DNA of 36,502 nucleotides from Cochliopodium minus (lineage: Eukaryota; Discosea; Himatismenida; Cochliopodiidae), in NCBI GenBank assembly GCA_024220525.1, contig JAMYWO010000356.1, positions 1 through 36,502 on the forward strand, read 5' to 3'. The notes beneath the pieces are model-generated. The model was given only the letters and a program-made list of their open reading frames with translations, was not told where the DNA came from and did not search any database. Below, one piece after another: positions 11,957-34,217 of the stretch (positions are counted from its first letter, which is position 1; every line of letters starts with the position of its first letter). The position numbers and the translations under genes were made by a program.

Positions 11957-12077
11957 TCTTCAAATCAATTTTATTTTTTTCATCTCTGAAATTAAATCAA
12001 ACATAAAAAAAAAAAAAATTTGTTAGATCAAACTATAAAGTTAATACCAACATAAAAAGAACATCCACATTTGTCAA

Positions 12078-14206
12078 ATGGATTACAGATTATTTATTTT
12101 GATCATCTTCTTTGTTACTTGCTTTGATGAATCAAACTCTTCGATCATAACCAATCCCTTGGACAACACCACTTTCCAAGTGCATACTCCTAGGTTCAAG
12201 GGATCTTTAGCTAAGATCCCGACATTTACCACCTATATTGTGCCTGCTGGATTTTCAACTAAAGAACTTCAAAGTTGCATAACTTTTAAACCAGCATATA
12301 GCATGGCAGGATTAGGGATCATAGTATTAAGATTTTTTTTTTTCATCTCTTTTTGAGAAATTTCTTTAATATGCTAATCTATAATTAAAAAATATATTAT
12401 CCACTGATATAATCCAAATATTTTGAATTGCAAAATTAAATTTAAAATTATTGTTTTCAAAAGGTGGTTTCTGAAAATGGATGCAGCATTGAAAAGCATG
12501 CAAATCTCGCAATAGGTAAGAAATGAAAAAAAAAAAAAAAAATTTTATAATTTTTTTAATCTTTGAAATTCTTGATATTGTTTTAAATTTAGAACAAAAT
12601 GCGGCTGTGGTTTTTGTTGTTTCATATTACATTGATTCGACCGCAAATTTCAAATCAGACTCTGAATATATTAAGAATAAATCCATTCCAGTTTTAATGA
12701 TGAAAGATTCGGTATTCCAATAAAAAATAGAAAAAATAAAATGTATTTTTAACTGAAATTTCATTATATTTATTGAAATAAATTTAATAAATATATTAAT
12801 AATATTTTCATTTGATCGATCGAAAAGACTATTTAAATTTTAATCTAATTCCAACAAAGGATCTTTTAATAATCTTCAAGGAATTGATCAAAAACTCTAT
12901 GAGCCCCATCAACGGAACTGTTTTGCCTTTATTGGTTACAGTCATAGATGACAAGAACCAAATTGATGAGATGACTAACAATGGAGGTTTCATTTTCTTT
13001 CAAATAGTAATTGAACTTTTTTTAGGTAAATTTTTAAAACTTTAAATTAAAATTTAAGTTTGGTTTTTGTTCTATTTGAAATTTTTTTTCTTAGTTTTGG
13101 GACTAATTATTGGAGTAAGGGGCCAAATTCTCTATATTAAAGAGGAAGGGCCCAAACCTTCTGCTGCACAAATTTGTTTATTGTTCAATAATTTGGGAAT
13201 TATTACCAACATTATCTTCGTTTTGGACTTGTAAAAATTAATTTAAAATTTTTATCAATTAACTGATTTGAATGTTAAATCAAAAAAAAAGTATGGGGAA
13301 ACAAGGATGGTATACTTGGCAACTGATTGTATGTTCTCTCTTTCTTACTGAGGTGTTCGTGACTATAGCATCGGTCTCGCTTGCCTATTTCTTTCTTGAG
13401 GTACCCAAAAAAAAAAGTTTTTTTTTTTAAATAATGGTTGAATTAATAATTTTCATGTTTTATTTTTACTGCTGATTTTACTAATTATTATTTTATTTTA
13501 GGTTCTCAGAGAGAAAAAACTTTCGTTTCCTGGCCTCTCCAAGTTCAAATACCCATTCATTATCACTTCGTTGGGGCTTTTTGGGATGTACATTTCTTTA
13601 ATGGTTTTGTTTTCTCAAAATAATTCCACTCTGCCCCTCACCAGGGCTAGTTCTTTATTACCCATGTCCATTTATGCCTGTTTAATGGTTTTTTTTGTTT
13701 ATGGAGGTGTAAGGGTGATCAAAAACTTGCATAATTTTAATAGTCCCATCATTCCTAGGTTTACTGCCATGGTTTTTGCTTCCGTTAGTGGGATGTTGTT
13801 AATTATTATTTCTTTAGGAATGTAAACCAATTTTTAAAATTTTGTTGATTATTTTTTTTTATTTTTATTTTAATTTTAATTTTTTTTTTATTTTTTGTTA
13901 TTTTTTTTATTTTTTATTATTTTTATTTTTAAAAAAATTTTTTTTTAATATTTTTTACATTTTTTGTATCTGATGTTTAAAATTTTAATTACAAGGTATG
14001 CCTCACTTAGACCTTCGATTCAATTTTATCTGGCAGTTTTGGTTTTGTCAACCATCGGGCACACCTTAATTTGCTTGCCACAAGTATTTACCTTCTTGAG
14101 CCCTCCAAAAAACAAGTTAAGTATCTATTCAGGAGGGACAGACGCTATAAAGAGTAACAACATGGATTTTGAAAAAAAGTCCATCAACATGAATGAATTA
14201 GAATAA
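12078..14206 (+). CDS. PA-domain ectodomain fused to seven membrane segments (receptor-like)
   Basis: Multi-exon gene with a signal peptide (MDYRLFILIIFFVTCF). The luminal or extracellular part resembles a protease-associated (PA) domain: LQSCITFKPAYSM, VVSENGCSIEKHANLAI, AAVVFVVSYYID, KSIPVLMMKDS, then DLLIIFKELIKNS. This follows the family pattern of two Cys, 'K...A', a hydrophobic strand and 'iPv..i'. Seven hydrophobic segments follow: IFFQIVIELFLVLGLIIGV, CLLFNNLGIITNIIFVLDF, LTEVFVTIASVSLAYFFLE, IITSLGLFGMYISLMVLF, SIYACLMVFFVYGGVRVI, TAMVFASVSGMLLIIISLG and FYLAVLVLSTIGHTLICL. A hydrophilic cytosolic tail ends SINMNELE. I see neither YD nor GLGD, the catalytic motifs of PA-bearing signal peptide peptidases, so it is not that protease. 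The first-membrane exon could be partly spliced differently. Best read as an orphan 7TM receptor-like protein; the ligand is unknown. Confidence 0.75.
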
Positions 14207-14383
14207 TTATTTTTCAAGCCCGCTCAAATTTTTGATTATTTATTTAATTTTGTTTGTTTAATAACTTTATTTTTCCTCAAAAAGATTTTTGATAATTATT
14301 TTCAATTAAAAGATTATTTTTGAAATGGTTCCTTTTTAGTTCCTAATTTAATTTATTTTTACAACTTATTTTTCCTTAATACA

Positions 14384-15538
14384 TCAATTTTGGTGGTTAA
14401 ATTTTTTCTTGTTGGGTTTATGTGGTATTTTTTGCTTTTTTTTTTCAGGTTGTTTTCCCTTTTGGTGGTTTTCATTGTTCTCAACCAACAAACCCAGAGC
14501 CTTGTTTAGAAATTTCAAATGAGACTGAACTAATTTCTGTAAATTGTCAGAAATTTTAGCAGAAGGGATGGCCTCATACTTTGCAATCTCATCTTTGATA
14601 AGTTTGTCAAGTTGGGTACTTTTATCATCGTCATCATAAAAGACGAGGGAGTCTTGTATGTTGAGAGGTTTCTCGTTAATATAAATACTGTTGCATAGAT
14701 CATCTTCTTCGTTGAGAGGCAAAAAACCATATCTCATAAGCATGTCGAGTTTGGGAGAACATTCCATAAAACCATAATAAGAATTGTAGATTTGAGAACC
14801 TTTTGTTATTTTGTTCTTGGAGAAGTATTGCCAGTAGTAATCTCCTTTAAAGAGAACGGATCTGTAGAGAACGTTCTCTTTGTATTGATCGTGATTCACC
14901 AGATCTCCCACCCCGATCGTGTGTAAGCTCCCGTATTTCATTCCGAAATTCTCGTCGATGGGCATGAAGGAGCGCGAGTAGATGCAGCAGATTCCCCACA
15001 GATAATCAGAGTAGGAGATCTTCATCTCTGCTGGCAGTTTTTCCACTATCGAATTATATTTCTCTTTATCCACATCGTCCATCAAGGTGAAGTATTCATA
15101 ACTTCCTTTTGGAAAATATTTCTTGATCTCCTCTTTATAATCCACCATATTCGTGCATTCTTCTGAAAGAAGCTCCAATCCCACATGCTCATGTTCTGAT
15201 AGATACAATAATGCAGTATAATAGCCAAAGATATCCACCCATGGCACTGTGAAGTCAGTTATGTTCTCGAAGATGGGATAATGCTTCATCATCGACACTG
15301 CTGTCAACGTTCCATTCTCCACTGGCACTATCAATACCTCTTCATTCTCATCTATATCCTCTACCGCCACGAGACAGTTTCCCATCCCCTCTATCTCCTG
15401 CATCTCGATCTTTTCTGAGATCATCAGATTGGGGCAGATGTTTATCATATCAATCAGATTGACTTTGGGCCTTGGATTCGATACTTTCACCATCAAAATC
15501 ACTCCAATCAAAATGAATGAAAACAAAAGAATTCTCAT
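14384..15538 (-). CDS. Secretory-pathway SET-domain protein A (SETD3/LSMT-like), no KDEL
   Basis: Intronless 384-residue protein, first of three tandem paralogues. A hydrophobic signal peptide (MRILLFSFILIGVILMVKV) precedes a SET domain of the SETD3/Rubisco-LSMT split type. Its parts are the glycine motif IEGMGNCLVAVEDIDENEEV (family: GRGl.A..di...e.ll), the central SDYLWGICCIYSRSF, the NH motif VGDLVNHDQYKENV, the YYG motif SQIYNSYYGF, and MLMRYGFLPLNEED. The N-linked sequons NGT and NIT lie before the SET core. The C-tail is lysine-rich (KGKQPEKKKQKIPHKPNKKK) and ends FNHQN, without the KDEL seen in its neighbours, so it may be secreted or held otherwise. Parts of the coding DNA are nearly identical to copy B, which shows recent duplication. 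Catalysis is uncertain because the glycine motif has Asn where the family usually has Arg. Confidence 0.85.
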   Translation of the reverse strand: MRILLFSFILIGVILMVKVSNPRPKVNLIDMINICPNLMISEKIEMQEIEGMGNCLVAVEDIDENEEVLIVPVENGTLTAVSMMKHYPIFENITDFTVPWVDIFGYYTALLYLSEHEHVGLELLSEECTNMVDYKEEIKKYFPKGSYEYFTLMDDVDKEKYNSIVEKLPAEMKISYSDYLWGICCIYSRSFMPIDENFGMKYGSLHTIGVGDLVNHDQYKENVLYRSVLFKGDYYWQYFSKNKITKGSQIYNSYYGFMECSPKLDMLMRYGFLPLNEEDDLCNSIYINEKPLNIQDSLVFYDDDDKSTQLDKLIKDEIAKYEAIPSAKISDNLQKLVQSHLKFLNKALGLLVENNENHQKGKQPEKKKQKIPHKPNKKKFNHQN

Positions 15539-15692
15539 TTTTTTTTTTTTTTTTTGATTAAGTGAATCTCCTTTAATTATTTTTTTTCAATTTTGAAGGT
15601 GAAATTTTTTATAATAAATATTAATTAATTAATAATGAACCAATGAATGAATATTCGCAAAAATAAAATAAAAACTGGAGTTGTGATATGGC

Positions 15693-16940
15693 TCATAACT
15701 CATCTTTTTCATCTTTAATCTTGTTCTGAAGTACATTGTTCTTGTCGACTTCTTTGATTTCTTTGATTTCTTTGATATTTTCCCCTTTGATTTCTTTTTT
15801 GTTCTCAGCTTCGATATGCGTTTCATTTCTTTGGGTTTCATTGTGATTAATTTGAGTTGTTTCGTTATGATGAGTTTCATTATTGAGCAATAAAGAGAGT
15901 GCCTTTTTCAAAAAATGGAGATGATACTCCACCAATTTTTGTAAGTTTGGAGAGATTTCAGTCAAAGGAATGCTCTCATACATTCCTATCTCTTCTTTGA
16001 TGATTTTATCAAGATTTTTAACATTATCATCTTCGTCGTAGAAAACAACAGAGTCCTTAATGTAGAGAAGTTTGTTATTGATGTACACTCTATGACATTC
16101 ATCTTCCTCTTCGTTAAGTGGAAAGAACCCGTATCTCATCAGTATCTCGAAACGTGATGGACAATGACCATAGTAGGTGCTATAAAGAACAGATCCTTTG
16201 GTGATTTTTGTTCTTGTTAGAAATTGCCAGTAGAATGAACCGTTAAAGTAGATGCTATTGTAGACGATATTATCTTCTTTGAAATCGTGATTCACCATAT
16301 CTCCTAATCCTATCACATAGAAATCTCCATGTTGCTTCAGCATCGATGGATCTATAGCTTGGAAGCTTCTTGAGTAGACACAGCAGAGCCCCCACAGATA
16401 ATCAGAGTAGGAGATCTTCATCTCTGCTGGTAATTTATTTACTATGATATTGTATTTCTCTTCATCCACATCCTCCATCAATACGAAGTACTCGTAACTT
16501 CCCTTTGGAAAATATTTCAACAATTCTTTTTTATAATCCACCATATTCGTGCATTCTTCAGGCAAAAGATCCAATCCCACATGCTCATGTTCTGATAAAT
16601 ACAATAATGCAGTATAATAGCCAAAGATATCCACCCATTCTGTATCTTTATAGTCCGATATATTTCTAAAGATTGGATAATGCTCAAACATTGAGGATGA
16701 TGTCAATGTTCCATTCTCCACTGGCACTATCAATACCTCTTCGTGTTCATCTATATCATCTATTGCCACCAAGCAGTTTCCCATCCCTTCTATCTCTCTT
16801 AACTCTATTTTGCTGGATACTGTCAACAATGGGCATATATCGATCATGTCCTCTATTTTCACTCTTTTCCTTGGATTAGATATTTTTACATTCAATATCA
16901 TCCAAATGAATAAAAGGAAAAAGATAATATAGCTCTTCAT
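15693..16940 (-). CDS. ER-lumen SET-domain protein B (SETD3/LSMT-like) with KDEL tail
   Basis: Intronless 415-residue paralogue of the gene downstream, 154 bases away in the same direction. The signal peptide is MKSYIIFFLLFIWMILNV. The SET core contains IEGMGNCLVAIDDIDEHEEV, SDYLWGLCCVYSRSF, LGDMVNHDFKEDN, SVLYSTYYGHCPS and ILMRYGFFPLNEEEDE. The region after the core has four NET sequons within about 20 residues (NNETHHNETTQINHNETQRN), then an acidic/basic KEIK repeat tail ending KDEKDEL. Signal peptide, sequons and KDEL together place it in the ER lumen. Cysteines in EECTNMVDY and CPS could form disulfides. Family members modify lysine or histidine of cytosolic or plastid proteins; an ER-lumen member is unexpected. 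Substrate and activity are unknown. Confidence 0.88.
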   Translation of the reverse strand: MKSYIIFFLLFIWMILNVKISNPRKRVKIEDMIDICPLLTVSSKIELREIEGMGNCLVAIDDIDEHEEVLIVPVENGTLTSSSMFEHYPIFRNISDYKDTEWVDIFGYYTALLYLSEHEHVGLDLLPEECTNMVDYKKELLKYFPKGSYEYFVLMEDVDEEKYNIIVNKLPAEMKISYSDYLWGLCCVYSRSFQAIDPSMLKQHGDFYVIGLGDMVNHDFKEDNIVYNSIYFNGSFYWQFLTRTKITKGSVLYSTYYGHCPSRFEILMRYGFFPLNEEEDECHRVYINNKLLYIKDSVVFYDEDDNVKNLDKIIKEEIGMYESIPLTEISPNLQKLVEYHLHFLKKALSLLLNNETHHNETTQINHNETQRNETHIEAENKKEIKGENIKEIKEIKEVDKNNVLQNKIKDEKDEL

Positions 16941-17104
16941 ATTTTTTTTTAATTTTTAATTTCTGAATTAATAGGAGAGAAAATAAGGAATTTTATTTAT
17001 CACCTTGAAATCTGAATGATCGGCGATGGATAAGTTATAGAAAATATAGCCAAAATGAATTTCCAATAACTAAAATATTGAATCATTTTTTTTCAAAATT
17101 TTAA

Positions 17105-18181
17105 TTACAACTCATCCTTATCATCTCGATTCTCGAGAATATCTTGAACTTTCTCAAGAAATTCAATGGTATTTTTGATCAAAATTTTCACTTGATCAGA
17201 TATGTCACCAGAGATTTTCTTGTACTTTTTAATTTCTTCAATGACCAATCTTTTGATGACAAAATCATTTTCTTCACCTTCATAATGAACCTGATTATCA
17301 TTTATGGAGATGGGGATGTTGTTTATGTAAACATTATTGCAATGATCTTCATTCTTGGGAATGAATCCATACCTCATCAATACATCCAATTTTCCAGAAC
17401 AAGCATAATCACCATAATAAGAAATATAAAGCTGAGATCCCTTTTCTATCTTTTTCTTTGTTACATATTGCCAATAATACGATCCATTGAAAAAGATATT
17501 GATTTGATCAACGTTTTCTTTTTTTGTATCGTGATTGAAGAGATCTGCAAATGGAATGAGATGTATTCCTCCATATAATTGATAAAATTCAGTGTCGAAT
17601 GGAACAAATGATCTTGTATATACAATACATATCCCCCAAAGGTAATCATTGTATGAAATTTTCAATTCATCAGGCATCTTTTGGTGTATTGAAAGATATC
17701 TATCATGATCAGCATCTTCAAATAGCTTTATATGGTTGTAACTTCCCTCTGGGAAATATTTGATGATCTCTTTTTTAAAATCAACCATATTTGAGCATTC
17801 TTCAGGCAACATATCTAATATGATATGATTATATTTTGAAAGGTACAATGATGATACATAATATCCAAAGATATGTACCCATGGCTTTGTGAAATCTGTT
17901 ATATTTGCGAAAATTGGGTAATGATCAATCATTGAAACTTCTTGTAATGTACAATTATGGGATGGGATAACGAATATCTCTTCATTTTCTTCAATCTCTT
18001 CTCTTGCAATTATGGATTTTCCCATTCCATTAATTTCATTCATTTCTACCTTCATATTCACCATAGATAAAGGGCATTTTTCTTCCATCTCCTCCAAACT
18101 TTTTATTGTTCTTGGATTTGATATTTTTATACTGTGAATCAATGTAATCAGAGAAAATAAGAACAAAATGCTGATTCTCAT
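17105..18181 (-). CDS. ER-lumen SET-domain protein C (SETD3/LSMT-like) with KDEL tail
   Basis: Intronless 358-residue paralogue, the most divergent of the three, lying 164 bases upstream of copy B. The signal peptide is MRISILFLFSLITLIHSI. All three copies share the pattern [KI]-[VI]-S-N-P-R right after it. The SET core has INGMGKSIIAREEIEENEEI, NDYLWGICIVYTRSF, FADLFNHDTKKENV, SQLYISYYGDYACS and VLMRYGFIPKNEDH. Sequons occur at NCT, NIT and NGS. The C-terminus is ILENRDDKDEL, a KDEL ER-retrieval signal, without the long tail of copy B. It is divergently arranged with the cysteine-rich 7TM gene, 239 bases between starts. The codon bias is more A/T-rich than in A and B. Confidence 0.88.
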   Translation of the reverse strand: MRISILFLFSLITLIHSIKISNPRTIKSLEEMEEKCPLSMVNMKVEMNEINGMGKSIIAREEIEENEEIFVIPSHNCTLQEVSMIDHYPIFANITDFTKPWVHIFGYYVSSLYLSKYNHIILDMLPEECSNMVDFKKEIIKYFPEGSYNHIKLFEDADHDRYLSIHQKMPDELKISYNDYLWGICIVYTRSFVPFDTEFYQLYGGIHLIPFADLFNHDTKKENVDQINIFFNGSYYWQYVTKKKIEKGSQLYISYYGDYACSGKLDVLMRYGFIPKNEDHCNNVYINNIPISINDNQVHYEGEENDFVIKRLVIEEIKKYKKISGDISDQVKILIKNTIEFLEKVQDILENRDDKDEL

Positions 18182-18420: not shown

Positions 18421-21400
18421 ATGATAAATATAAAAATTGTTATTTTGGTTATTTTGTTTTTAAATATCTTTCCGAATGAAGGACTGAAAGTAGAGAAAAT
18501 TCAATACACAAAAAAATCATCAAGAATAGGTAATTTTTATAACTTAAATTAGATTTCCAATTCATCTGATCGTCAAAAAGGGTAAAAAAAATAACTACTA
18601 TTTGCGCATAATTTTTTTCAATTCTTAATATGAATTGTTATAAAGATTGGGAGAAGAAATCAATTTAATTTTATTTGATTTGTACTTTGATTCAAAAATA
18701 TACATGGATGACGGGATTGCATTGAAAGCATTTAGCTCCTATAATTTCACATGGGACATTTATACAAATAAAACGACTGGAATCCCTATATGTTTGGGAA
18801 GATCGGACATCAATCAATGTCCAAAATTACCAACTGGCTTGTTGAATATAGCATCCATGTTTAGATTGGAATGTGACAATAATAGAGATATTTCAGAAAT
18901 TCCAAAGCAAGGATTTATTGTGAATTATCCTCAAATTGGATATGGTGGAAATAGTTTGGATTTTGTTGTTCCATTTTTCCCATCATTTGATCCAATCTAT
19001 TCATTTGGAACGGATTTAGGGTAAGATAATTGAGAGAGAATTTCTCGAAAAAATAAAATCATTTCCCCTTCTAGATGGATTAATGATACCAGTCTCAACA
19101 TTATCGAGAACAAATTATCATTTGTGGTTTTTAATGCATTGACGAAGGGAGGTGTGAATTATAATTTCGGATTAAGGCCAACCGATTATTCTTTGTGCAA
19201 TTTTCAAATTTACAACACCACTGGATACAAAAACAGAAGAATAGTCGATATAAATAATAATGTAATTCTTTTGGATTTATATTTGAAAATTTAATCTTAA
19301 TTTGTATTTTATTGTTAAAAATATTGAAGACTATAGAAGGTTTGGATACAATAAAAATTGTGGAATCTACTCCCAATATAACATGCAATCCTTTGGCTGT
19401 CCAAAAGGCACAAAGTACAATCAGCAATCTGACATCTACTTTGACTTGTATATATTTTTTTTTCTCCCGATTTTGACTTTTTTATTTTTTTATCAATTTA
19501 GTTTCTAAAGATTGGACCAGTTTGACAGATAATCTTTGGTTTTATACATGGTTTTTGCTCTCAGATGAAATGTCCAATTGCATCAAATTCCTTGATCAAA
19601 ATACTCTTTTAAGTAGAACAATTGGCACAGTATATAGCAGTTCATTTTGTTATTCTGAAGCACAGACACCAGAATGGCTTGCAGATCCTTGTAAAAATAT
19701 CCTTATGATGAGTTTAAGAATTAATAAATAATCCTAACAAATTAAAGGTTGTAATCCTTTCATTTATGGAAAATCCGATCATTGTTGTATGTCAAGAAAT
19801 ATCTCAACTAACATTCAAAGTTATTACAATATTTCCTCTGCATATACATCGGTTTGTACGTCCAAAGATAAGATCACCAGTTTGATTCAAGATTATCTTG
19901 TTATTCGTAACACAACAACAGATCCATTGGTTGGTAATCAATTATTCAAAATACTTTTAAATCATCGGGATTATTAATTTGATTGTAAAAATAATAGGAT
20001 GTTCATCTTCCATAAGAGATGTATCAAAGAGATCTTTGGATGATCAATATGATGCTTTGTTTTCATGTTTCGATCAAATGAGCCCGGTCAGTTGCTATGA
20101 CGACAGCGATTGTCCTTGCTCATCTTGGTAACATTCTAAGAATATCAATTGTTCATTTTTTTAACTATATATTTAACAGTAATGTCCACTCAAACTGTTT
20201 TCCATGTACAGTTGATAACCAACAAAAGTGGCTTACTTCTTGTTTTAATGGTTCTATTCCCAAAAATGTTGAATCTTTTGCGAGAGCTCTATGGGTAATA
20301 TTTTTCTTTGTTGATTAAACTAATTCCCTGATAATTATATTAATGCTTTTGTTTGAAATTTATTAGGGTTTAATTGGTGCTTCGGAAGATGTTTTTTTGA
20401 ACACCTTTTATAACAAAACTTTGGTCCCTCAATGCGTCGCTTCAAATGGTACAACACTTTCTACACTCAAAAATGAGTCTTCATGTTTGGCAACTGGTAT
20501 TTGCAGAGTGAACTCTACCAGTTTCACTTATGCGCAAATTAAAGAATCAAATTGTAAAGGTGAAAATGAAACGGTTGGTGTTTGTGAAGTTTGCAGCGCA
20601 AATGGAGAATGCAGTGCTTTGCCATTCGGTGATTATTGCCAAATAACCGATCCTAATTTAAGTAGTTACCAAGTTTGTTTCGAGAATTATGGTAAATAGA
20701 ATATTCTATCGAATATTTCGAATAAATTTTTTTTTATGCCAGGATATTCATGGAGTGAAATTTTGAATCAATGTTACTTTCCAACTTACAATAAATCTCA
20801 ATGTAATTGTGGAACGGGTATGTCCAATTATACATCTTGTTTGACTGGTAATAAAATTTGTTTTAAAAGAAGATGTAGGTTAAAAATAATTAATTTTATT
20901 CAGGTTATTGTTCTGTGGGAAAAGATCAATCTAAGTGCATTTTTAACCCTGCAACTGATGCGGCTTACAAATATTGGGATCCTATTTTGGGAGAGTGCGT
21001 TGCCAATATAATGACCAGATTTGCTTGTAGACAATACAGTGGAGGTAAAGAAACTTTAGAAAAATTTTTTTATAATTTACTCTATCAACTTGATTAGGAG
21101 GAGCATGGGTTTATGGAAAGAAATGGATTGAAACTGATAAATCCTATCTTAATATCACCAAAAAAGAGGATTGTGAGAATCTTTCTCTTTGTAGAGTGAA
21201 TGGTTCCATTGTCAACGGAACTTGTGATCAAAACAATTGCGTTGGAAACACTTACACATGCAAATCTCGTAAGTTTTAAAGACATTTTGTTAGGTTTCTT
21301 CTTTAATTTCATTATTCTTTTTATTTTAGATTCTTCTGATCCTCAATTTATTTGCTACAACGCATCTATTACTAATTCAACAGAATGTAAACTCAAACAA

Positions 21401-24400
21401 GGTTGGTGGGTAAACATCGATAATATATGTGTATTTTCAGTTATTAAGGACGCAGCAACGTGTTCTGCTATGGGTTTAACGTAAAATTTTTTGTTTTTTC
21501 ATTTGAAATTTAATCTTTTTCAAGTGGTGAAACTTGTGCTGGTCTTACAAATGAACAATGTGTTAAATGTACTTCTTATAACACTACTGTTTGCCCGCTT
21601 AAGGGAATGAATGCTCTCTAGTTAATTTTTTTTATTTTTTATTGATTTGTTAATTTTTTTTAATCTAATCAAATAGTTGTGGAGTTTGGTCGAACGGAGA
21701 CGTACCCACTACTTTACCGAAAGATCAGTGTGAAGAAAAGGGGTACTGTTTTCCGATGCAGTACTTTCCTGGGTGCTTCTATTCAACTGATGTAATATTA
21801 TTTTCATTTTTTTTTTTTCACTTTTTTTGGGTAATTATTTACAACTTTTTTTTATAGTTTATAACAAGTAACAATAATTGTCCTTTGTGTTTTTGGGGTG
21901 GAAGAACTAGCATTAACTCTAACCCTCAAAACAATTTCAGAAATGAATACGCAGATAGTTTGGTCCAAATGTTTGAAGAGCCACACACATCACGCAAGAG
22001 AGCAGAAGTCAATATCTTTGCACCTACTTTTATAAACCTCTTGGATCGTTGGAGCGCCATTTTTGGTTGCAGTTATCACAGTGTGACCGAGTCTCAGTGT
22101 GCTGAAGCTGGTGGACAATGGCTCAACAGATTATATACAAAACAGGATTGTGAGGCTTTGAAGGCTTGTAAAGAGCCAACTTCACACGTATGTTTCCATC
22201 ATTTTTTTATATTATTTATAATTTTTAAAACTTTTTTTTATAGTATTGTCAGTACCAAGTAGACGGGACTTTACTAAGTAAAAACAAAATTTTTTATTCT
22301 TATTTTTTTTATAACATTTCTGAAGATATTCTCTTTCTTTTTATAACTTTGTGATTTACGTATTTTTTATTTTTTCTTTAGCTATGGATTATGTCACAAA
22401 CAAATCTTATGAAGAATGCCAAAATTGTGGTGGATCTTGGGAGCCCGTCTATCAATGGAGAGCAGCTCAATACGTTCCGGTGACAAAGTTCACAACAAGA
22501 TGGAAAACTGTTGCATGGGAGCCTTCCAACAAGTTTGTTCCGGTCATTTCTAAACAGTCCCTCATCAACCAGATTGTACAGCTTATTTATATTCAACCAG
22601 GTACTGAAGTTGCAACCAACATTTTATGCCAAACAACTCCTATTTTAGAAACTTTAAAGTTGATTACTTGTGACTGTTTGAGTGGTTACAGGTAAATAAT
22701 CATTTTTTATCATTTTGTTAATGGAAACCCATGAACATTTATTATTACGCAGAGAAATAAATGAATATTTATTTTTTAATTTGCAATCAAAATTATTTTA
22801 TATTCTTCGCATTCTAATGAGAATTATTTGGCCGAATGTTTATAACTATTTTATACTTAACAAATTTTTTTTTTTTGTCTTAATTTTCATTTTAATTAAA
22901 AATCGATTAATTTTGTAAATATATTTTTTAATAGTTCACTTGACATTTGCAAGAGTACAAGTTTTGTTTCATACCAAATTGGTAGCGAACTTTTTTGCTA
23001 TGGTAACGAAAAGAATGTGAGAGTAGGATCCATAAATTTGGGAATCTATTCAAACTCTGTGCCTGTATCCATGTATTGTATTAACATGCAGCTCTTTTCT
23101 CATGGTGTTTCCCAATTCCAAAATCACGACATTGTATCCTCTTCTGCTCTCTTGGCTTCTCTTACATTTAAAAACAATCCATATGCTGTAATTAAAAATA
23201 AACATAGTTATGTTGGTAAAGAGCATTTTTTAAATTTCAAATCTTTTTTTATTTCAAATTTTATTTTTTATTTTATTATTTTTCAAAATTTTTATTTAAA
23301 CTTTATTTTTTATTTAAACTTTATTTTTTATTTTTTATTCTTCATTCTTTATTTCAAATTTTTTATTTTTATTAGTTGGTCAATTATTGGCTGATGGTAT
23401 TGGTATTAATATAACCAAATCTACACTCGTGGGTAGTTCCGCTAGCCCGAACACAAGATCAACCACAGCCAGCAACAACACCTTTTTGCTTTGCATGGAT
23501 CAGAGAAAGGATGTAGAGTATGCTGTCAATGATTTCCCATTGTTGGACTTTGCTTCTACAATAGATTACAAAACTTGGTAACATTTCCCTTATTTATTTA
23601 AAAATCATTAAAAATTTCTTATTATTTCAAAAATTATTATTATTTCCATTTATTAATAATAAATATTAGAAAATATAATTTTATTTTTTGTTTATTATTT
23701 TTGAAACCATCCTTAATTTTTTTTTCAGGACACCATTAAAACTCAACGTAACAAACTTAAATGGACAATATTGTGGGCTCGTTTCGACCTCTACCAACCT
23801 GATTTTCCCTGTGGCTCTCTCTAAAGATTGGGAGACAAGGAACTCCATTTTTGCTAACAACAAGGACGTGCAGAACGTTCTTTACTTTTTAGCGGTGTTC
23901 ATGTTTCTTTTGTTCGGAGGAAGTTTTTTTTTCTTTTGGTTCCATTATTACATCAACCCTCATTTCTCCTTGGCCAAAGTTTCCCTCATTTTGATCGCTG
24001 CATATTCCGGGTTACGTGGTGTTTACTTTTTGCTTTTCGCTCTTGACAAACTTAATGGGATCTCCAACAACAATCCTGCAGGTTAAAACTTTTTTGTTTT
24101 ACATTTTCATGTTTCATTTTTTAAAAAAAGGATTCTTGTTTGGCTGAGCTCCCATATTATTTATTTTTATCAATTTTATCATTTTGATCATCTTTTGGGT
24201 AAATTTTTAATTTTATTTAAAACAAATCAAAGCTTTCAATTTGAAATTTTTTTCAAAATTATTTAGTCTAAAATATCGAAAACAACTGCCAGAAACTTTA
24301 CCAAAAATGTTTGTTCCTACTTTGACTTTATTATTGCTTTTGTATGCATTCTTTGCTGCTGTATAGTAGCAGCAGTGGTCAAAGGACAAAGTAAATATTT

Positions 24401-24966
24401 CAATCTTTTTTAGTTTTTTAGTTTTATTTTTAAAAGGTGCCACTGTATTGAATAAGGTCTACAAGTCCATTGTCGCAGCTATTGCTTTCATAATTATTAT
24501 CTTCGTTGGATCTACGGAGGCTACGTCATCAGGGTGAGTTACAGAGGAATGAAGTTGAAGAAGAGGACTACTTCGACATTTTGTTCAAACCACTGTAGTC
24601 CTTATCATTTCTTCTTTGGCCCTTTTGTTCCAGATCATCTACCTATTGTATGTAATCTTTGCAAAGACTCGTCTGGTATTTTTTTAGAATTTTTTAATTT
24701 TAAAAATTAAATTTGGTCATTTTAAATTATTTACATTTTTAATAAATTTTTAGTTGGTTTTTCTGTTGCTGTCTATTTCTTGGTTGAGGCTGTTCCGCAT
24801 TTTGTCTCTTCTTGTTGTTTTTCCGATCAAAACCGAAGCCAAACTCAGCAGAACCATGTCCAGAAAATCTGGCAAATCCAATGCTTCCCATAAAAATGAA
24901 AAAGAATTTGAAAAGGAATCTGTTGAAATCGACAAGTTATCTCCAAAAAAGAAATTTATTAATTAA
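18421..24966 (+). CDS. Large cysteine-rich ectodomain protein ending in about seven membrane segments
   Basis: Long gene of about two dozen exons. The first exon at 18421 encodes a signal peptide (MINIKIVILVILFLNIFP). Its donor (GGTAATTT) does not match the phase of the next exon at 18646, so a small exon or another donor is missing from my model. The ectodomain (about 18646-23860) has dozens of Cys and many N-linked sequons. It carries repeats of the form Cys...GGxW...Cys, such as CAEAGGQWLNRLYTKQDC, CQNCGGSWEP, GGGAWVYGKKWIET and CKLKQGWWVNIDNIC. The 3' exons encode membrane segments: VLYFLAVFMFLLFGGSFFFF, LILIAAYSGLRGVYFLLFAL, LFIFINFIILIIFW, FIIAFVCILCCCIVAAVV, IVAAIAFIIIIFVG, VLIISSLALLFQIIYLLYV and LVFLLLSISWLRLF. 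A basic/serine tail ends KLSPKKKFIN. Likely a cell-surface adhesion-type receptor. No known ectodomain family is recognised. The frame of the last membrane segment is open to doubt because another frame there is also hydrophobic. Confidence 0.7.
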
Positions 24967-25256
24967 TAAAATGTATTTGATAAAAATAAAATAAAAAATA
25001 AATAAAATTTTTAACTGTTTAAGATTGAACAAATAAGAATCTTTCAGAAATTAAAAAGAGGTTTGTAATTAAGATTTGAAATTAATGATTGTGAAATCTT
25101 TAAACCTATTTTGTAGAACACATCTTTTTGAGATCATTGAATTTATCTTTCGGATCAAGCTCCATTAACTTTCCTTATAACAATCCGTTCAGAAGATTGA
25201 TATCAATTGAAGTTTAATGGATTTCTTTTCGAAAAAGAAAAAAAAAAAATTAAAGA
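24967..25256. other. Intergenic region before the first RCC1 gene
   Basis: 290 A/T-rich bases between two co-directional genes. It would hold the 3' end of the 7TM gene (AATAAA-like strings at 24966-25005) and the promoter of the RCC1 gene, with an A-tract just before its ATG. I see no reading frame or RNA gene. A slightly GC-richer patch at about 25120-25210 has no recognisable content. Confidence 0.4.
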
Positions 25257-26853
25257 ATGGAATATTATTCTAGCAGTTCCCAAGGATACCATAGTTTCTT
25301 TTATGATGGTAAATTTAAATTAAAAACAAAAAACGTATCTATTTATAAAGGATTTATCTATTAGTTCAAAGAAACCTTTTTGATTGTTTCATAAAATTTT
25401 ATCTTATTCAAATATAGAAAAGGAAAAGATTGTTTATGGATGTGGAAATAATAGTAGTGGTAAAGATTTGAAAATATATTTAATTTAAATATAAACTCAT
25501 TATTCCATCAAATGCAACAGGACAATTGGGAGATGGAACAACAGTAAATAGATCAACTGTGGTAGAAATAATGAGGGGAAAGGAGGTTGTCTCGATAAGT
25601 TGTGGGTTCAATTTTACTCTCATCTATTGTTGGAACGGAGACTTATATGGAATGGGGCTTACTCAAAGTTTATATCCGGAAAAAGAATTTAAAGAATATT
25701 CCCTTACTTTAATCCCTACACTACTCTGCAATGACCCTGAAATAAAATCTATTTGTTGTGGATATAATTATTCTGTCATTTTGAAGAAAGATGGAAAGGT
25801 TTTGAGAAATTTTACTGAAGAAATTGAAACAAACATAAAAATGATCTCTTCTGGTAAATAAAATTTTTTTTTTTTTTTTTGAGAATCATCTATTTTTTAT
25901 TTAAGAAGATTTTATATTTTTATTTCCAAATTTTTATGTTAGGATATAACTTTTTTGTGATGTATTCAAACGATGGGAAAATTTATGGTTATGGAAGCAA
26001 TGACTATTACCAACTTGGGGAATCAGATTGTGTTTCTAATAAGTCTGTTTTTTTGTTTGAAATACCAGATGTGAGAATGATGGAATGTGGTGCTTATTTT
26101 ACTTTGGTTTACAAGGAAAATGGTGATTTGTTAAGTTGGGGAGATCTTAGTAAGAAATTTTCAATCCATTTAAAACTAAACATAATTTTTTTTTTTTTTT
26201 TCATTAGGTTACGCTCAACTTTTACAAATATCCAAAAAAGGTGAACAAACTTTGATTACCAACAACAAAAATATCAAACAAATAAGTTGCGGTTATTATT
26301 TGTGCTCATATTTGACTCATCAGGACGAATTGTTTCTTCTTGGTTATTTAGATAAAGTAAATATTTTAAAAAATTAAATTTAAAATTTATTTGTTTTTTC
26401 GTTAGAAAGGTGAATTTGGCCCTTATAAACTTGATACAAATAATGAAAAAATAAAATATTCTATTGCGTTTGGACAAAGTTATATGTATTACACTGAAAA
26501 AGGAGATGTTTATTCTTTTGGTCAAAACAAGTAAATGAGAAAATTTTTGAAACATCTTTTTTAACTTTTAATTTTCATTTTTGAACCATTTTAGTAATGG
26601 ACAATTAGGTATTGGTAATAAATTTGAACATGAGTCTTCTCCTCAAAAATCTTTTAACAATGCAAATCTCTCCGTTATTAATTCAAGAACTACCAACCTT
26701 TATCCTTTGTGGACTCCTGAAAGACATTCCTTCTTTCCATCTTTTTTCAAAACTCAAGTTTCAACGTTTGTGAAATGTTTAAAGTGTAAACAGGTTTTTT
26801 GGAAAGTTAGAGTTCCTAAATTCGTTTTGTTTGAGATTATCAAGTTTTCTTGA
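25257..26853 (+). CDS. RCC1-repeat (beta-propeller) protein with conserved PKFV-type C-terminal tail
   Basis: Multi-exon gene starting MEYYSSSSQGYHSFFYD. It encodes a string of RCC1-like repeats, the units of a seven-bladed propeller: YGCGNNSSGQLGDGT, VVSISCGFNFTLIY, IKSICCGYNYSVIL, IYGYGSNDYYQLGES, VRMMECGAYFTLVY, IKQISCGYYLCSYL, VYSFGQN|NGQLGIGN. The last exon (about 26595-26853) leaves the propeller. It encodes a 'W-T-P-x-x-H-x-x-F-P' stretch (PLWTPERHSFFPSFFKTQV), a helical segment VSTFVKCLKCKQVF and the end KVRVPKFVLFEIIKFS with a TGA stop. This tail resembles that of the Ras-like protein at 11020. RCC1 repeats serve as Ran/Rho exchange factors or as general binding platforms; no catalytic assignment is possible. 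It stands head to tail with the larger RCC1-ROCO gene, which suggests that the two share an origin. Confidence 0.8.
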
Positions 26854-27096
26854 CACCTTTAATTTAACAAAATCACATCAATCAAGAATGATAATTTTAT
26901 TTTTAATAAATTTATATCTTACGAATTGCCACTTTTTTTTGAATAATGAATAGAATGATTATATTGACAATATATCTGCAATATTTCTAATTCTCTCAGA
27001 TTGATACAGAATAATCCATCATAAAATAAAAAAACTTTTTATAAAAAGAAAGAAACAAAAAAAGATTTTTATTTTATGAAAATATAAAAAAAAAAT

Positions 27097-30000
27097 ATGA
27101 GCTATAATTGCTTTTCTCATCACAATTTGTTAATCAATAGTATTTTTTTTTTTTTTTTTACTCTAATATTTATTAAATTTTCATCATTTTCATAAATCAG
27201 ATGAAAACAAGCCATTTTCATTCGGATTAAATTCATCAGGGCAATTAGGATTAGGAGATCTCATCAATAGAAATATTCCTACAGAAATAAAACATGAATT
27301 CATGGATATAAAGTATATGGCAACTTCATTGGAAAATTCTTACATTCTACAAAGTAAATAATCAATCACTGTATAATTTAATTTTAACATCAATATTTAT
27401 TAATCAGAGAATGGAGATTTGTATGGATGTGGTAATTGAATTTTTATCGTTTCCCCTTTAAAATTATAAAATATATAATTTAGGATCAAACAAATATGGG
27501 CAATTGACAAATGAGAATAAAGATAAATACACTGAATTCATTTTCATAACGGGGAATGTACAAAGGATATCTGCATCCAACAATTTCTTTCTCGTTCAAA
27601 AAGATCAGGGAAACATATATTTGATAGGGAAGGGACTAGAGCATATAAGGGAGAATGATATAAACCTTGATAATCTAATGAAAGAAAGAGAAATAGAATC
27701 TTCCGAGCGAGAATACCAAAAAGAAAGGAATGATGTAAATATGGAAGAAATAATAATAAAAGGAATTGATAAGAAGGATATAGTTTCTTTTTCTTGTGGA
27801 TATGATCATGCTTTATTCCTAAGCAGTATTTATCAATTTTTTTTTAAAGTTCTTTTTTTAAATCAAATTCTTTTTCATAAAAGAAATTGGACAAATTTGG
27901 TCATTGGGATTCAATAATTATGGTCAATGTGGGGTTGGTCATAAAACCAAATGTATTTTCGAGCCTCGCCAACTTTCTTCTTTGGGAAAAATCGATTTTG
28001 TTTGTTGTGGATACAACTACTCTGTTCTTGTGAATGGTAAAGCAATATTCATTTAATACAACAGATTAATTTAATAAAAAAAGTTCAGTAAAAAAATGAA
28101 TTGATTTCAAAAAATATTAATATTGTTTTTTTTCAAGACAAAAATGAACTTTTTTGCTTCGGAGAAAATTCGGAGGGACAATTAGGGATAGGAAATTATG
28201 AGAGAAAGGTTTTTGAAATGAAAAAAGCGGAGGGGTTAGAAAATTTGGGAAAAATTCAAAGTATAAACTGTTCTTGGGACACCACCATCATTTCTGACGG
28301 ATCCAACTTTTATTTCGCGGGGAATAATAAGTATGGGAGCTTTTCTATGTACAATAACGAAGAGGATGGTGGACATTCTATGTTTAGGAAATCAAATTTA
28401 AGAAATATTAAACATGCATTTGGTGGAGCAAATTTTACACTTTTTGTTGATGGTAATTTTTTTATTTTCTTTTATTTTATTTTTATCTTTTTATTTTTTT
28501 TTTATCGTTAGGTGACGAGAATTTGTTGTCTTGCGGTTTTAATAAGCATGGAAATCTTGGTTTAAAAGATCACGATCACAAATTCTCTGCTTGTTATTTA
28601 GATTTCAAAGATTTAAAAATGGTTCATGGTAGAGAAAAAAGTTTTGTAAAATTTTTTATTTTTTATTTTATTATTTTTTTATTTTTTTATTTTTTTAATA
28701 AAAGACAAAATCTACTGAAAGTTTTCAAAAGAGTTTGAATTCTTTTACTTCCACCACCATAAAAGAAAAAGAATTCTCCTTTCATAACAAAGAAATAATA
28801 GACTTTGAGAAACTGGATAACAATCTTAAAGTGGAAAAAAAAAACATTCCTGTGCCTCAAAAAGTTTTTATTCATCAACAATACCCAACTATGATGAGAT
28901 TTATTTTAGGTTATTTTTTATTTTTTATTTTTTTATTTTTTATTTTTTATTTTTATTTAGTTGGAGATGAAAAAGGAAAGGAAATTTTCAACAACAGATG
29001 CTACGAATCCTTTGAATACAAAACTCTCCAAAAAAATTTTTCTAACAAAGACATTTATATGGGTAGTGTTGTTGACGTGAATAAAATTTCTCTTTCTTTC
29101 TGGAACTACAACGAAAAAAATTTGTTCATGAACAAGTAAAATAAATTTTAATTTTTATTTAAAGAAAATAATTATTTTTTTAAATTAATTAGGAATTATT
29201 CGGATCATTGTAATATATTTTTTTATTTTTTTATTTTTATTTTTATTTTATTTTTGAATTTTTATTTTAAATAAAGTAAATGTCTGTTTGCTCTTCTTTG
29301 ATTTCAATTCCAGTAAACTTGATCTCAGGATTCTTTTTGACAAATGGTTCAACTTACTCGAGGTTTCTGCAAAGAGTTCAGTTGTATATTTGGTTGGATT
29401 TAATGGAGAAAAACTCTATGAAATAGAGAAGAGTAAAAGATTTTTTTTTTATTTTTTATTTTTTGTTTTTTTTAAATTTTTTATTTCAAATTTTTTATTA
29501 TTCATTTAATTTTATTCTATTTTTTTTGAATATTAATTTTTATAGTTGCAAACAATATCAATACGTCCATAAATCTTCATTATAATGTCAAAACAAATCT
29601 ACCCACCATCTTTGGTTTTTCCTCCCAAAACGTAAAAAGTAAAACCCAAGAACTTTTGACAAAGCTTATTTATGGAAGTTGCGATTTTTCAAAGAACAAT
29701 CCTTCCAAAAAACTCACAATTCTTCAAGATTCCATCGAACATCGTAGTCTTCTAAACAATTTGGACATTCTCCAAAAAGTGAGCACTTGCATTTCTATTA
29801 GCGAGCTCAAAATTCACTTTTCTAATTTCGACATTAAACATCTGAGAGATCTTCATAACTTTGGCTTTATCACTTATTTCTTTGATGAAAAAGATTCTCA
29901 AGAATATCTCATTCTCAATAATAGATGGTTAAATAATGGTTAAATTTTTTTCCTTTTCTTTTCTTATTTTTTTGAAGAATAATTTTTATAATTTTTGAAA

Positions 30001-31059
30001 TTTAGTTGTGGGAATTTTAAATGGTAAATATTTTTATTTTAAAAATTAAAAATTTACTTTTTTAATTTTTTATAAAAAAAATAGCAAAAGAAGAAATCTT
30101 TTTATCAAAGTTTCAACCATTCAAGCAAAAATTAGGAATCAAAGAAGAAAAGAAAGATATTTTGGAAATTTACAACATCCTCACCGAATTCGACCTTGAC
30201 TTGATAAAGAACAATGATAAAGAAAACATTAAAAAGTACTTCAGGAACAAAAAACAAGACAAAGCAGACATTAACCTTCTCCAAACACTCTACACCATTC
30301 ACCAAAAGCAATACGAAAACATAGCGGATGTTTTTTTTCCTCATAAACTTTACCAAAAGATGAATTCAAATGAAAAAAGCTTTGTGAAAAGCATTTTGAG
30401 AAGATTTGAACTCATTTATGACTTTGAGACTGTTTACTCTTCTAGTTTGATGATTGTGAACAAGTTTTACATTTCTCCATACCTCTTTCCTAAAGTGAAG
30501 GACAAATCTGTGGACAATTACCTCCTTTCTTTTGGGAAGATGAAATATCACTTGACTTTCCGCTTCTCTTTTACGAAGTTTCCAAGATTTGGCCCTCTTT
30601 TCAACTCATTTATGGTTATTCTTGCTAATAATCTGAGAAATCATCTTCAATGTATTGATTATTTCTTCAAAATTAATGGTATTTCAATTATTTTTTTTAT
30701 TTATTTAAACTTATCTTTATTTTAATTGATTTTTTTTTTTTTATCATTATTTTTTTCTTATCTTTATTTTTTTTATTTTTATTTTTTACAATAAGAATGC
30801 ACCTTGTTTTTTGATGTAAGTGGAATCAAGACTGTGTTAGAAATTCCTCCTCCAAAGAATGATTACTTAATTGTAACAGTAAAAACAAACGGGAACGTAC
30901 AGGTAGTAACTAAACAAATTGAATTCTCCATCAATTCTTTTCTCCAAAAATTGATCCACTTGAAGCCCAAACTCAAATTTGTAGATTCAAGAGACTCTGA
31001 ATTCTTAAGACAATATAATTTTGTTATTGAACAAAAAGAAATTCATGAATTTGTGATTA

Positions 31060-31090
<31 letters not shown>

Positions 31091-34000
31091 TTTATTTTTA
31101 TTTTTATTTTTATTTTTATTTTTTTCATTTTATTTATAAAATTTTTATTTTTATTTTTATTGTTAAGTTGATTTTTTATTTTTTATTTTTATTATTTTTT
31201 TAGGACAAAGGGAAGATAGATTGTTTCACTTGTGGCCTCAAAAATTCTTACACTTCTGATTCTTGTTTTTCATGCAAAAATTCCCTTTTAGTTGAAAATA
31301 CAATCAAAATCACCAACGTAATATTTTTTTTGATTTTTTTATTTTTTTTTTTAAAAAATATTTTTTTATTTTTATTTCCTTAGATCATCAAAACGAATGG
31401 AAATGAAATTTTTTATGAAGGAAAATTAACGAATAGTGATGTGAAAATTATGGTTGTTGAAAGAATTTCTTCTGAGAAAAATTTTGTAGAGAAATGGGAC
31501 AACGAGATCACAATCCTCCAAAAAATAATGAAGGAAATTCCAAAATTTCTAACTCAAAAGCTTTTTGATGTTCTTGATGAAAAAAACAGAAAAATTTTGA
31601 ACAAATTTGCTGTTTTTGAACTTTTTGAAAAAGAAAAAAACATTTTTTATTTCCCTCATTTCATTAAAACCAAATTAAAAGAGGGAGAGGTAGATTTCAT
31701 TAAAATGATGGTTTTGTTGATGTCTGATTTGAACAAGCTTCATCAAAAGAACGTTACTCATGGAGGAATAAAGATGGAGAACGTTTTTTTCGACGATAAA
31801 TGCAATTTTTTCGTTGTTAATTTTAAAAACTCTTCTTTTTATGTTGAAAATCAAAATTATGACTTATTCCATCAAAAGATGATCAAAGATATTGTTGACA
31901 TGTTTGATTTGTTTGAAAAAATGTACGAAAACTGCAAAGGAAAAGATTTCTTTCCTAACTTGTTTGGAGTGATTGAATCTTTGAAAAAAAAAATATCCGC
32001 TAACAAGTTTCATTTCTTGGAATTTTTTCACATACTCGAAGAGTACTCCACAAAGAAACACAATCAACACTTTGATAAATTTTGGAGAAAATTTCTTATA
32101 AAAGAAGAAATTTCACATAAATTTCTCAATGTAAAAAAGATTCTTCAAGATAGCATCTCTCTTAACTACGAGAAAACTAACAAAATCTATTTTGATGCAA
32201 TCCTTTCTGCAGGGATTTTGAGTACCAATAGTTTCCCCCAGAAAATCTTCATTCACAAAGAAAAGAAGGAGGAGAATGTCCTCATTTCCAACCCTTTCCC
32301 TTTTGAAGGGAAAATTTCTTTTGATATTTTGATCAATACAAGTTCTCCAAACGAAATAAGTTTAGGTAAAATTAAAATAAATTTTTATTTATTATTTTTA
32401 ATTTTTTTTTTAATTTTTTTTAATTGTTTTTTTATTTGTTTTCTATTTTGTTAAAGGAATATGTGAATCGACTTTTGGTGACTGGAAAAACTATGAAAAG
32501 AACACAGAACAAGTACTGAGAATACAGGGACAAAAGCCACAAGACTTCAAATACACAGTGATGCAACAAAACAAACTCTACCTCCCCATCAAACCCAACC
32601 AACTCACCTCCATGAAAATCCTAATCGACTTTTACCATCAATACTTGATTATCTTTAAATCTAACAATAACAATAATAATAATAATAACAATATTAACAA
32701 TAATGTAATCAATAACATTATTAACAATAATAATTTTTCTTATGAAAAAATCTGCGAATATTCTTTTAAATATTCTCAAATTAAAAAAGGAAAGTGCAAG
32801 TTTTTTTTATCGATGAATGCTCCTAATGATTATTGCGAAATTTTGGACACCTTTTTTCTTCATAACTACACTCACAAGGTTGACTTGCCTTTTGGTCAAA
32901 CCCCTCTTGACTTTTCTCGGAATCTTCGCAGGGTGGAGAAGATCATAGAAGATGGGAAGTATTCTCACGTTAAAAGCACCAATTCTTATTTTTTGGGGAA
33001 TCTAATGACTGGATCCGAACAAATCTACATGTGTATTTCTGTCAAACAAAAAAATCCCAAAAATCCAATTATTTTTGGTAAAATTTATTTATTATTTTCA
33101 TTATTTTATTTTTTATTTATTTATTATTTATTTATTATTTATTTATTATTTATTTATTATTTATTTATTATTTATTTATTATTTATTTATTATTTTTTAT
33201 TTGTAATTTTTTTTTTATTTATTGTTATTTTATTTATTATTTCTATTAGGAATGTTTAATAACAAAATAACATTTGAGGAAAACAATAAAGATACCATAT
33301 TTTTGTCTTTTGAAGACTTTAAAGACATAAAAAAGAATAAGGAAGAGGAGTTTTACATCGTTTCAAACAAAGACAGTATCACCATAAAAAGAAAAGAAAC
33401 GAAAGAAAGTTTCAACAGAAAAATAGAAAAAGGAAAAGTAAAAAAAAATTATTTTATTTTATTTATTTCATCTTTTAATTTAATTTTTAATTAAAATTTT
33501 TTTTATTTTTTTTTGATTAGGAGATAAATTTCTTTTTTTCATTGTTCGAGAAAGGAGATTATGTGGAAATAAGGGAATTTGAACTCCTTAACTTTGGTTT
33601 AGTAGAAGAGAAAAACGGACTGACTTACAGCCAAATAAACAGGAAAGTGGAATACATTGTGGAAAATCAAATAAAGTGTGTTTACTCTTCGCCTTTGTTA
33701 CCTCTTTATCCAATTAACATTTGCCTTCAAATTTCATTTGTAACAAACAATGTTGGAAAATTTTCATTTGGTAAAAAAATCTTGATTTTGTTTTTATTTT
33801 ATTTTTATTTCCTTTAAAGGATTTTCGAACGACAAGCAAACAAAAAAAATTTTCTTAAACAAGTTAGACAAGTTTAGTATTAAAAATGGAGAAGAAAAGA
33901 CTATTTTCTTGGTTGTTGACTTTAAAAACAACAAAATTTTCATTCTTGACATTGAGAAAAAAGCAGATTTTATTATTGGTATGTGCCCGGAATTAGAAAA

Positions 34001-34217
34001 ATCAAAAAATGGAATAAAATTATTTGTTAACTTGGCTAAAACAAAAGACAATTTTTACATCAACTCCATGAATATTTCTACCCTCCCTTTTATTTCTAAC
34101 AATAGAAATGATGATCTTAAATCTGTTGTTCTCGGAAAGTATGGAATTTTACAACAAAATAATGAGGGTTTTTCTTCTTCAAGCTTGTTTGGACTTTTTG
34201 ATGATGGTTTAATTTAA
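27097..34217 (+). CDS. Giant RCC1-Roc-COR-zinc ribbon-pseudokinase-SPRY-like (ROCO family) protein
   Basis: Gene of about 20 exons. The first encodes MSYNCFSHHNLLIN. RCC1 repeats follow (about 27200-28640: FGLNSSGQLGLGD, GSNKYGQL, LGFNNYGQCGVGH, FGENSEGQLGIGN, CGFNKHGNLGLKD). The Roc region (about 28880-29650) reads MMRFILVGDEKGKEIFNN, ISLSFWNYNE, LNVCLLFFDFNSSKLDL and SSVVYLVGFNGEKL. COR (about 29690-30690) has LRDLHNFGFITYFF and YLILNNRWLNNVVGIL. A CX2C-X10-CX2C knuckle lies at 31222-31275. A kinase-like domain (about 31384-32200) has NEITILQKI, then HGGIKMENVFF where HRDLKxxN is expected and VVNFKNSS where DFG is expected. Three SPRY-like units follow, to the stop at 34217, with an Asn run at about 32660-32735. 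The Roc lacks GK[ST], DxxG and NKxD; the kinase lacks the VAIK Lys and both catalytic Asp. It is probably a scaffold. Borders of a few exons are approximate. Confidence 0.82.
31057..31130. repeat. ATTTTT hexamer microsatellite in a ROCO-gene intron
   Basis: About eleven near-perfect copies of a TATTTT hexamer just after the donor that follows QKEIHEF. It is the longest pure hexamer run in the window and lies wholly in the intron. Confidence 0.75.
31222..31275 (+). other. Zinc-ribbon-like knuckle between COR and kinase of the ROCO protein
   Basis: Reads C-F-T-C-G-L-K-N-S-Y-T-S-D-S-C-F-S-C, that is CX2C-X10-CX2C with Gly and Asn after the second Cys. It resembles RanBP2-type and other small zinc ribbons that bind ubiquitin or RNA. 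It lies on its own small exon (about 31204-31318) with good splice signals on both sides. Zinc binding is inferred from spacing only. Confidence 0.6.
33116..33194. repeat. 11-bp tandem repeat (ttatttattat type), about 6-7 copies
   Basis: The unit TTATTATTTAT is repeated without visible change inside the intron between SPRY-like units two and three of the ROCO gene. It is a perfect minisatellite, which points to recent expansion or replication slippage. Confidence 0.8.

Follow-up and report, generated by a model that had tools for sequence, protein, structure and literature searches.

A contig of 36,502 nucleotides from Cochliopodium minus (JAMYWO010000356.1, assembly GCA_024220525.1), numbered 351 in a genome of 44.65 Mb in 598 contigs and referred to here as the window, carries a tandem trio of SET-domain genes, A, B and C, on the minus strand at 14384-18181. 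Judged by profile comparison, their products are divergent SET proteins of the LSMT/SETD3 type, far from any known member; all three have hydrophobic N-termini and two end in the endoplasmic reticulum (ER) retrieval motif KDEL. Placement of the trio in the ER lumen is likely, on the strength of the signals, the KDEL ends and the controls applied to them, and if the proteins are luminal we consider catalysis moderately probable. Taken as a whole, the reading that the trio forms an ER-lumen branch of the LSMT/SETD3 class, most likely methylating secretory clients, is one on which we regard the scales as evenly balanced. The DNA of the window is AT-rich, and each of the three genes is a single open frame without introns:

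17105..18181, minus strand: SET gene A, 358 amino acids, with predicted signal peptide and KDEL, intronless (open reading frame (ORF); Pfam SET PF00856; LSMT structure 2h21)
15693..16940, minus strand: SET gene B, 415 amino acids, with hydrophobic N-terminal signal, KDEL and an extra tail of NET sequons, intronless (ORF; alignment with A; profile comparison)
14384..15538, minus strand: SET gene C, 384 amino acids, with hydrophobic N-terminal signal and without KDEL, intronless (ORF; Pfam SET just below the cut-off)

SET class and motif residues of the trio

Protein A matched the Pfam SET family (PF00856) with an E-value of 2.1e-6 and 28.5 bits, above the cut-off of 22.4, and protein C fell 0.5 bit below it (21.9 bits, E 2.4e-4). 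Protein B had no Pfam match on its own (E up to 1) and was assigned to the class through the trio alignment and profile comparison. The match in A covers residues 54-255 for a model of 105 positions, consistent with a SET domain split by a long insertion, and about 80 residues follow the SET core. NCBIfam returned two weak matches (0.087 and 0.18), neither of them useful. Among solved structures, LSMT and SETD3 come closest: protein A matched LSMT (2h21) with E 2.1e-4 and SETD3 with 0.11, protein C matched LSMT (0.14) and protein B a SETD3 entry (0.13), the last two each too weak alone, and a profile of the trio matched LSMT at 2.9e-4. Profile-profile comparison of the trio with an LSMT-type profile (rows C543, C107 and C9, named after contigs of this genome and described below, plus LSMT and SETD3) gave a probability of 98.0 over 222 columns; against LSMT singly the value was 92.6 and against a SETD3 fragment 93.5. 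Control comparisons with 100 shuffled LSMT sequences reached at most 3.0, and a KMT2-type SET domain of the same genome gave 0.1.

A preliminary description of the window had placed three adjacent LSMT/SETD3-type SET genes here, and this was confirmed down to the exact coordinates. Its class label survives, but not as orthology to SETD3, and PF09273, the Rubis-subs-bind domain, was not found (see below). Protein A matches LSMT better than SETD3, both weakly, and the genome holds a separate SETD3-like gene, C543; the trio was rejected as SETD3 orthologues.

Seven of seven named motif residues are invariant in the trio (G52, G54, R190, N216, H217, Y255 and Y271 in the numbering of A), in an alignment whose 355 ungapped columns include 142 invariant ones. 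The GxG, Arg, NH and Tyr residues have S-adenosylmethionine (SAM)-related and catalytic roles in SET enzymes. The NH motif reported earlier corresponds to the invariant N216-H217. Five Cys residues are likewise invariant in the alignment and may form disulfides. The motifs lie in gene A as follows:

18020..18028, minus strand: GxG motif (G52, G54), invariant in the trio (trio alignment)
17612..17614, minus strand: Arg190, aligned to the Arg of the LSMT SRAF stretch, invariant in the trio (alignment to LSMT)
17531..17536, minus strand: NH motif (Asn216-His217), invariant in the trio (trio alignment)
17417..17419, minus strand: Tyr255, trio-invariant, at the position of the Tyr in LSMT YIQYD (alignment to LSMT)
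17369..17371, minus strand: Tyr271 (RYGF), trio-invariant, at the position of the Tyr in LSMT DYGF (alignment to LSMT)

The three genes are tandem paralogues separated by 154 and 164 bases, with B and C sharing 46% and 51% identity, respectively, with protein A in the trio alignment. Pairwise nonsynonymous divergence (dN) is 0.29-0.44 against synonymous divergence (dS) of 1.45 to saturated; the proteins are therefore under constraint (purifying selection), and the duplications are old. A genome-wide search with protein A (E 0.001) returned A, C and B only. Viral and prokaryotic contig collections, searched with patterns from two alignments that reach near relatives only, yielded no relatives of the trio, and within that reach nothing points to a viral or bacterial source.

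N-terminal signals, sequons and KDEL ends

Each protein begins with Met followed by Arg or Lys and then about 15 hydrophobic residues. The observed N-terminal hydropathy was matched in 42, 3 and 4 of 5000 shuffles of the same protein (A, B and C, respectively), with a maximum over 12 residues of 3.23 in B and 3.17 in C. Among ATG ORFs of at least 60 amino acids in the window and seven fetched loci, a hydrophobic start joined to a hydrophilic rest was seen in 7 of 96; three of these seven are A, B and C, leaving 4 of 93 for the others. Cleavage was scored by the method of von Heijne. A reached 8.80, B 1.59 and C 4.28, values matched by 2, 206 and 44 of 5000 shuffles; reference proteins on this scale were hen lysozyme (10.4), BiP (12.1) and actin (-2.3). 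The score of A is high and rare in shuffles, and gene A therefore has a clear signal peptide. In B and C cleavage may be inefficient, or the stretch may serve as an anchor with the body in the lumen. The earlier proposal of an N-terminal signal peptide in each protein thus holds for the hydrophobic start, which is present in all three, but for a good cleavage site in A only.

Sequons for N-linked glycosylation number three in A, seven in B and two in C. Shuffles equalled these counts in a fraction of 0.010 for B and of 0.41 and 0.72 for the others, and since only B exceeds its shuffles, sequon number was dropped as proof of glycosylation. The sequons described previously are indeed present in every protein, and two positions are common to A, B and C (76-78 and 93-95 of A), but their abundance stands out in B alone.

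18131..18181, minus strand: predicted signal peptide of gene A, cleavage after Ser17 (IHS|IKI) (von Heijne 8.80)
16890..16940, minus strand: N-terminal hydrophobic stretch of gene B, with a weak cleavage site (von Heijne 1.59; hydropathy 3.23)
15491..15538, minus strand: N-terminal hydrophobic stretch of gene C, with a doubtful cleavage site (von Heijne 4.28; hydropathy 3.17)
17948..17956, minus strand: sequon N76-C-T of gene A; B and C have NGT in this column (trio alignment)
17897..17905, minus strand: sequon N93-I-T of gene A; B and C have NIS/NIT in this column (trio alignment)
15819..15881, minus strand: four NET sequons in the tail of gene B (sequon count)
17105..17119, minus strand: KDEL and stop of gene A, AAG GAT GAG TTG TAA (pattern scan, codon reading)
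15693..15707, minus strand: KDEL and stop of gene B, AAA GAT GAG TTA TGA, with K and L codons that differ from those of A
14436..14445, minus strand: run of ten A, some 20 codons short of the end of gene C (sequence reading)

Proteins A and B end exactly in KDEL, as first described, and C ends in FNHQN. The tails that precede KDEL in A and B do not align, and the chance of a KDEL end from composition is 5e-5 per protein. The frame is least certain at the last residues of C, because of the A10 run upstream. A genome-wide scan for KDEL followed by a stop (TAA and TGA only, with Phe also allowed at the last codon) found 36 places, compared with 16 for a reversed-pattern control. Codon reading left a true K-D-E-L-stop in 21 of the 36, and an open frame of at least 80 amino acids precedes it in six of these 21, A and B included. 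Two others encode a calreticulin (PF00262, E 5.2e-21) and a thioredoxin-domain protein (1.5e-7); the remaining two gave a weak thioredoxin match (0.0048) and a short-chain dehydrogenase-like end (0.00042), both below the cut-off. The other 15 places, in short frames, may be chance occurrences or last exons. A KDEL receptor is encoded on contig C134 (PF00810, E 4.8e-28), and STT3 matches lie on two contigs. Adjoining thioredoxin-like genes ending in KDEI and KDEL form a small ER cluster on the minus strand of C266:36500-43500, a locus with two first exons that have signal-like starts (5.2 and 9.4).

Other LSMT-type genes and the surroundings of the locus

A genome search with PF09273 identified three further LSMT-type genes, C9, C107 and C543, and a SET search, which gave 24 places, added a fourth, C90, assigned by reading; its SET match (3.7e-5) is just above the cut-off and spread over 204 residues. 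Because spliced genes match exon by exon, these searches give lower bounds, that is, at least four LSMT-type genes besides the trio. Gene models were made by hand:

C9:60000-66500, minus strand: LSMT-type model, 456 amino acids, 6 introns (PF09273 3.4e-17; SET below the cut-off)
C107:5500-12000, plus strand: LSMT-type model, 470 amino acids, 8 introns (PF09273 2.1e-11)
C90:39000-46000, minus strand: LSMT-type model, partial, 5 introns (SET 3.7e-5; about 2 kb of the stretch is N)
C543: SETD3-like model, 419 amino acids from an internal Met, 4 introns (PF09273 4.6e-10; SETD3 1.4e-32)

The N-terminal scores of C9 (5.07), C107 (5.77) and C90 (6.41) are signal-like; that of C543 (-11.25) indicates none. 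The match of C543 to SETD3 starts at residue 85 of the modelled chain, so the true start lies upstream of the model, and the likeliest upstream exon, which was picked by eye and left unjoined, likewise lacks a hydrophobic start. Six of the seven LSMT-type genes found therefore have a signal-like start, the exception being the SETD3-like C543. In this genome, the entry of LSMT-type SET proteins into the secretory pathway seems to extend beyond the trio. Among the LSMT-type genes found, intact motifs occur only in the trio, two of which have KDEL; C9, C107 and C543 do not end in KDEL. In a tree of SET cores the trio groups together on a long stem (100/100), and C107 is possibly its nearest relative in the genome, with weak support. 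Genome searches with the C9 and C107 models (E up to 10) recovered their own exons only. The trio is intronless while its four LSMT-type relatives have 4 to 8 introns, which may point to a retrocopy followed by tandem duplication.

The surroundings of the trio look eukaryotic, with frames interrupted as if spliced. Of ten window pieces compared with Pfam, some gave RCC1, SH3, START and sulfate permease matches above the cut-off and a kinase match below it, and five had no match. Adjoining gene A, and directed away from it, is a large multi-exon gene on the plus strand at 18421-24970 (extent by eye), with a signal-like start (4.7), many Cys residues and sequons, and a hydrophobic stretch near its end; none of the four pieces tested matched Pfam. 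A multi-exon gene on the plus strand at 12045-14209 (extent by eye) converges on gene C and has a signal-like start (5.2) and several hydrophobic stretches; the sole piece tested (13502-13822) had no Pfam match. Further along the plus strand, at 25484-34214, RCC1 repeats (one piece tested) are followed by a weak kinase-like stretch (31384-32451, below the cut-off), perhaps as parts of one long gene.

Alternative readings and known systems

In the pathway we propose, the N-terminal signal would bring each chain into the ER, from which A and B would be retrieved by KDEL and its receptor, while C might be held back by partners, remain anchored by its signal or leave the cell. With its SAM and catalytic motif residues kept, the SET core would methylate lysine or histidine side chains of passing secretory clients, using SAM brought into the lumen by a putative carrier. 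The targeting to the ER lumen suggested in the preliminary description gains support from sequence tests with controls, on both the signal and KDEL. Its alternative of methylation or a chaperone-like use is not settled between the two, but the kept motif residues favour methylation.

Several observations weigh against this reading. A good cleavage site is found in one protein of the three, KDEL in two, and both genes that flank the trio are also signal-like at the start, as scored above. PF09273 was not detected in the trio (E up to 1), and AlphaFold on the three-row alignment returned a predicted local distance difference test (pLDDT) score of 40.1 at full length and 38.2 when trimmed, both of very low confidence. 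In single comparisons with the trio profile C107 and C543 gave 80.1 and 59.3, and C9 and C90 a mere 1.6 and 1.5. C107 keeps both Tyr residues with NY instead of NH, C90 has SH instead of NH and Phe instead of the first Tyr, and C9 retains neither NH nor the first Tyr. With weak forks and long branches, the tree of SET cores does not show one origin of the signal-bearing genes.

The altered motifs of the signal-bearing C9, C90 and C107 imply that the fold can sit in the secretory pathway without intact motifs, and C9 is a probable pseudoenzyme there. The loss or change of NH and the first Tyr in C9 and C90 makes it more plausible that the trio, too, is luminal and non-catalytic, the SET fold binding clients or a partner as a chaperone-like protein or escort, with catalytic residues kept by chance or for structure. 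Published work offers two further points in this direction: a paper on an ER methyltransferase of fungi cites scarce SAM in that compartment as a possible limit in a recombinant yeast (PMC10349129), and one on METTL9 describes a role in neural development mainly independent of its catalysis (PMC12313917). Set against these is the persistence of all seven motif residues in three proteins whose identity to A, where they differ from it, is about half. We consider non-catalytic binding unlikely, though it is the strongest competitor, and active methyltransferases the more likely of the two because the motif residues are kept. That the hydrophobic stretch of B and C is instead a type II membrane anchor, or that C leaves the ER, is improbable in our view. 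The weak and doubtful cleavage sites of B and C, and the lack of KDEL in C, would fit; the score of A does not, the stretches are short and resemble signal peptides, and KDEL in B is a luminal signal. Such an arrangement would in any case alter the compartment little.

Least probable is a cytosolic trio in which the hydrophobic stretch and KDEL are coincidental or untranslated. It would agree with the location of other known members of this SET class, which act in the cytosol, nucleus or plastid. METTL9, which has a signal peptide, was also located at the cytosolic face of the Golgi (PMC12313917). A cytosolic location has to be squared, however, with hydrophobic N-termini in all three proteins, rare both in shuffles and in other ATG ORFs, with KDEL appearing twice by different codons, and with signal-like starts in three further LSMT-type gene models. 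The reading of the trio as luminal SET proteins that methylate secretory clients can be extended, more tentatively, to a dedicated ER-lumen methylation system of soluble, KDEL-retained SET enzymes and imported SAM, in which recruitment of the LSMT type was perhaps repeated, some members being active and some decayed to non-catalytic partners.

The methylation of proteins by SET enzymes is regarded as a chemistry of the cytosol, nucleus or plastid. If our reading is true, a soluble KDEL-retained SET family would imply a supply of SAM to the ER lumen, and methylation of lysine or histidine could then join the quality control or maturation of secretory proteins; the trio may modify or guard proteins leaving the cell. 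Keyword searches of the open-access literature gave, among the matches listed, no title or abstract start describing an ER-lumen SET protein, which is weak evidence of absence. The system was called undescribed in the preliminary account; this is upheld for SET proteins among those matches, but luminal or ER-linked methyltransferases of another fold are known.

Rubisco LSMT is a plastid enzyme with a substrate-binding domain. In its solved structures (PDB 2h21, 1mlv) it resembles the trio in having a SET domain with a long insertion, an NH motif and two Tyr residues; the trio differs in its ER signals and in having no detected PF09273. The actin-histidine methyltransferase SETD3 (PDB 6ict, 6v62) belongs to the same SET class and has Ser in HSGF where the trio has Tyr in RYGF. 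METTL9 shares a signal peptide with the trio and is N-glycosylated in the ER, but it is a histidine methyltransferase of an unrelated fold, with seven beta-strands, has no KDEL and was seen at the cytosolic face of the Golgi (PMC12313917); an earlier study describes an ER location without the signal (PMC8571522). NHMT of filamentous fungi is described as an ER-resident methyltransferase that modifies secreted proteins; unlike the trio it has a seven-transmembrane anchor and a seven-beta-strand fold rather than a soluble SET domain, and the word KDEL is absent from the main text of that paper (PMC10349129). For the supply of SAM, the Golgi SAM transporters of plants, GoSAMT, are a precedent for import into a secretory compartment (PMC9946043).

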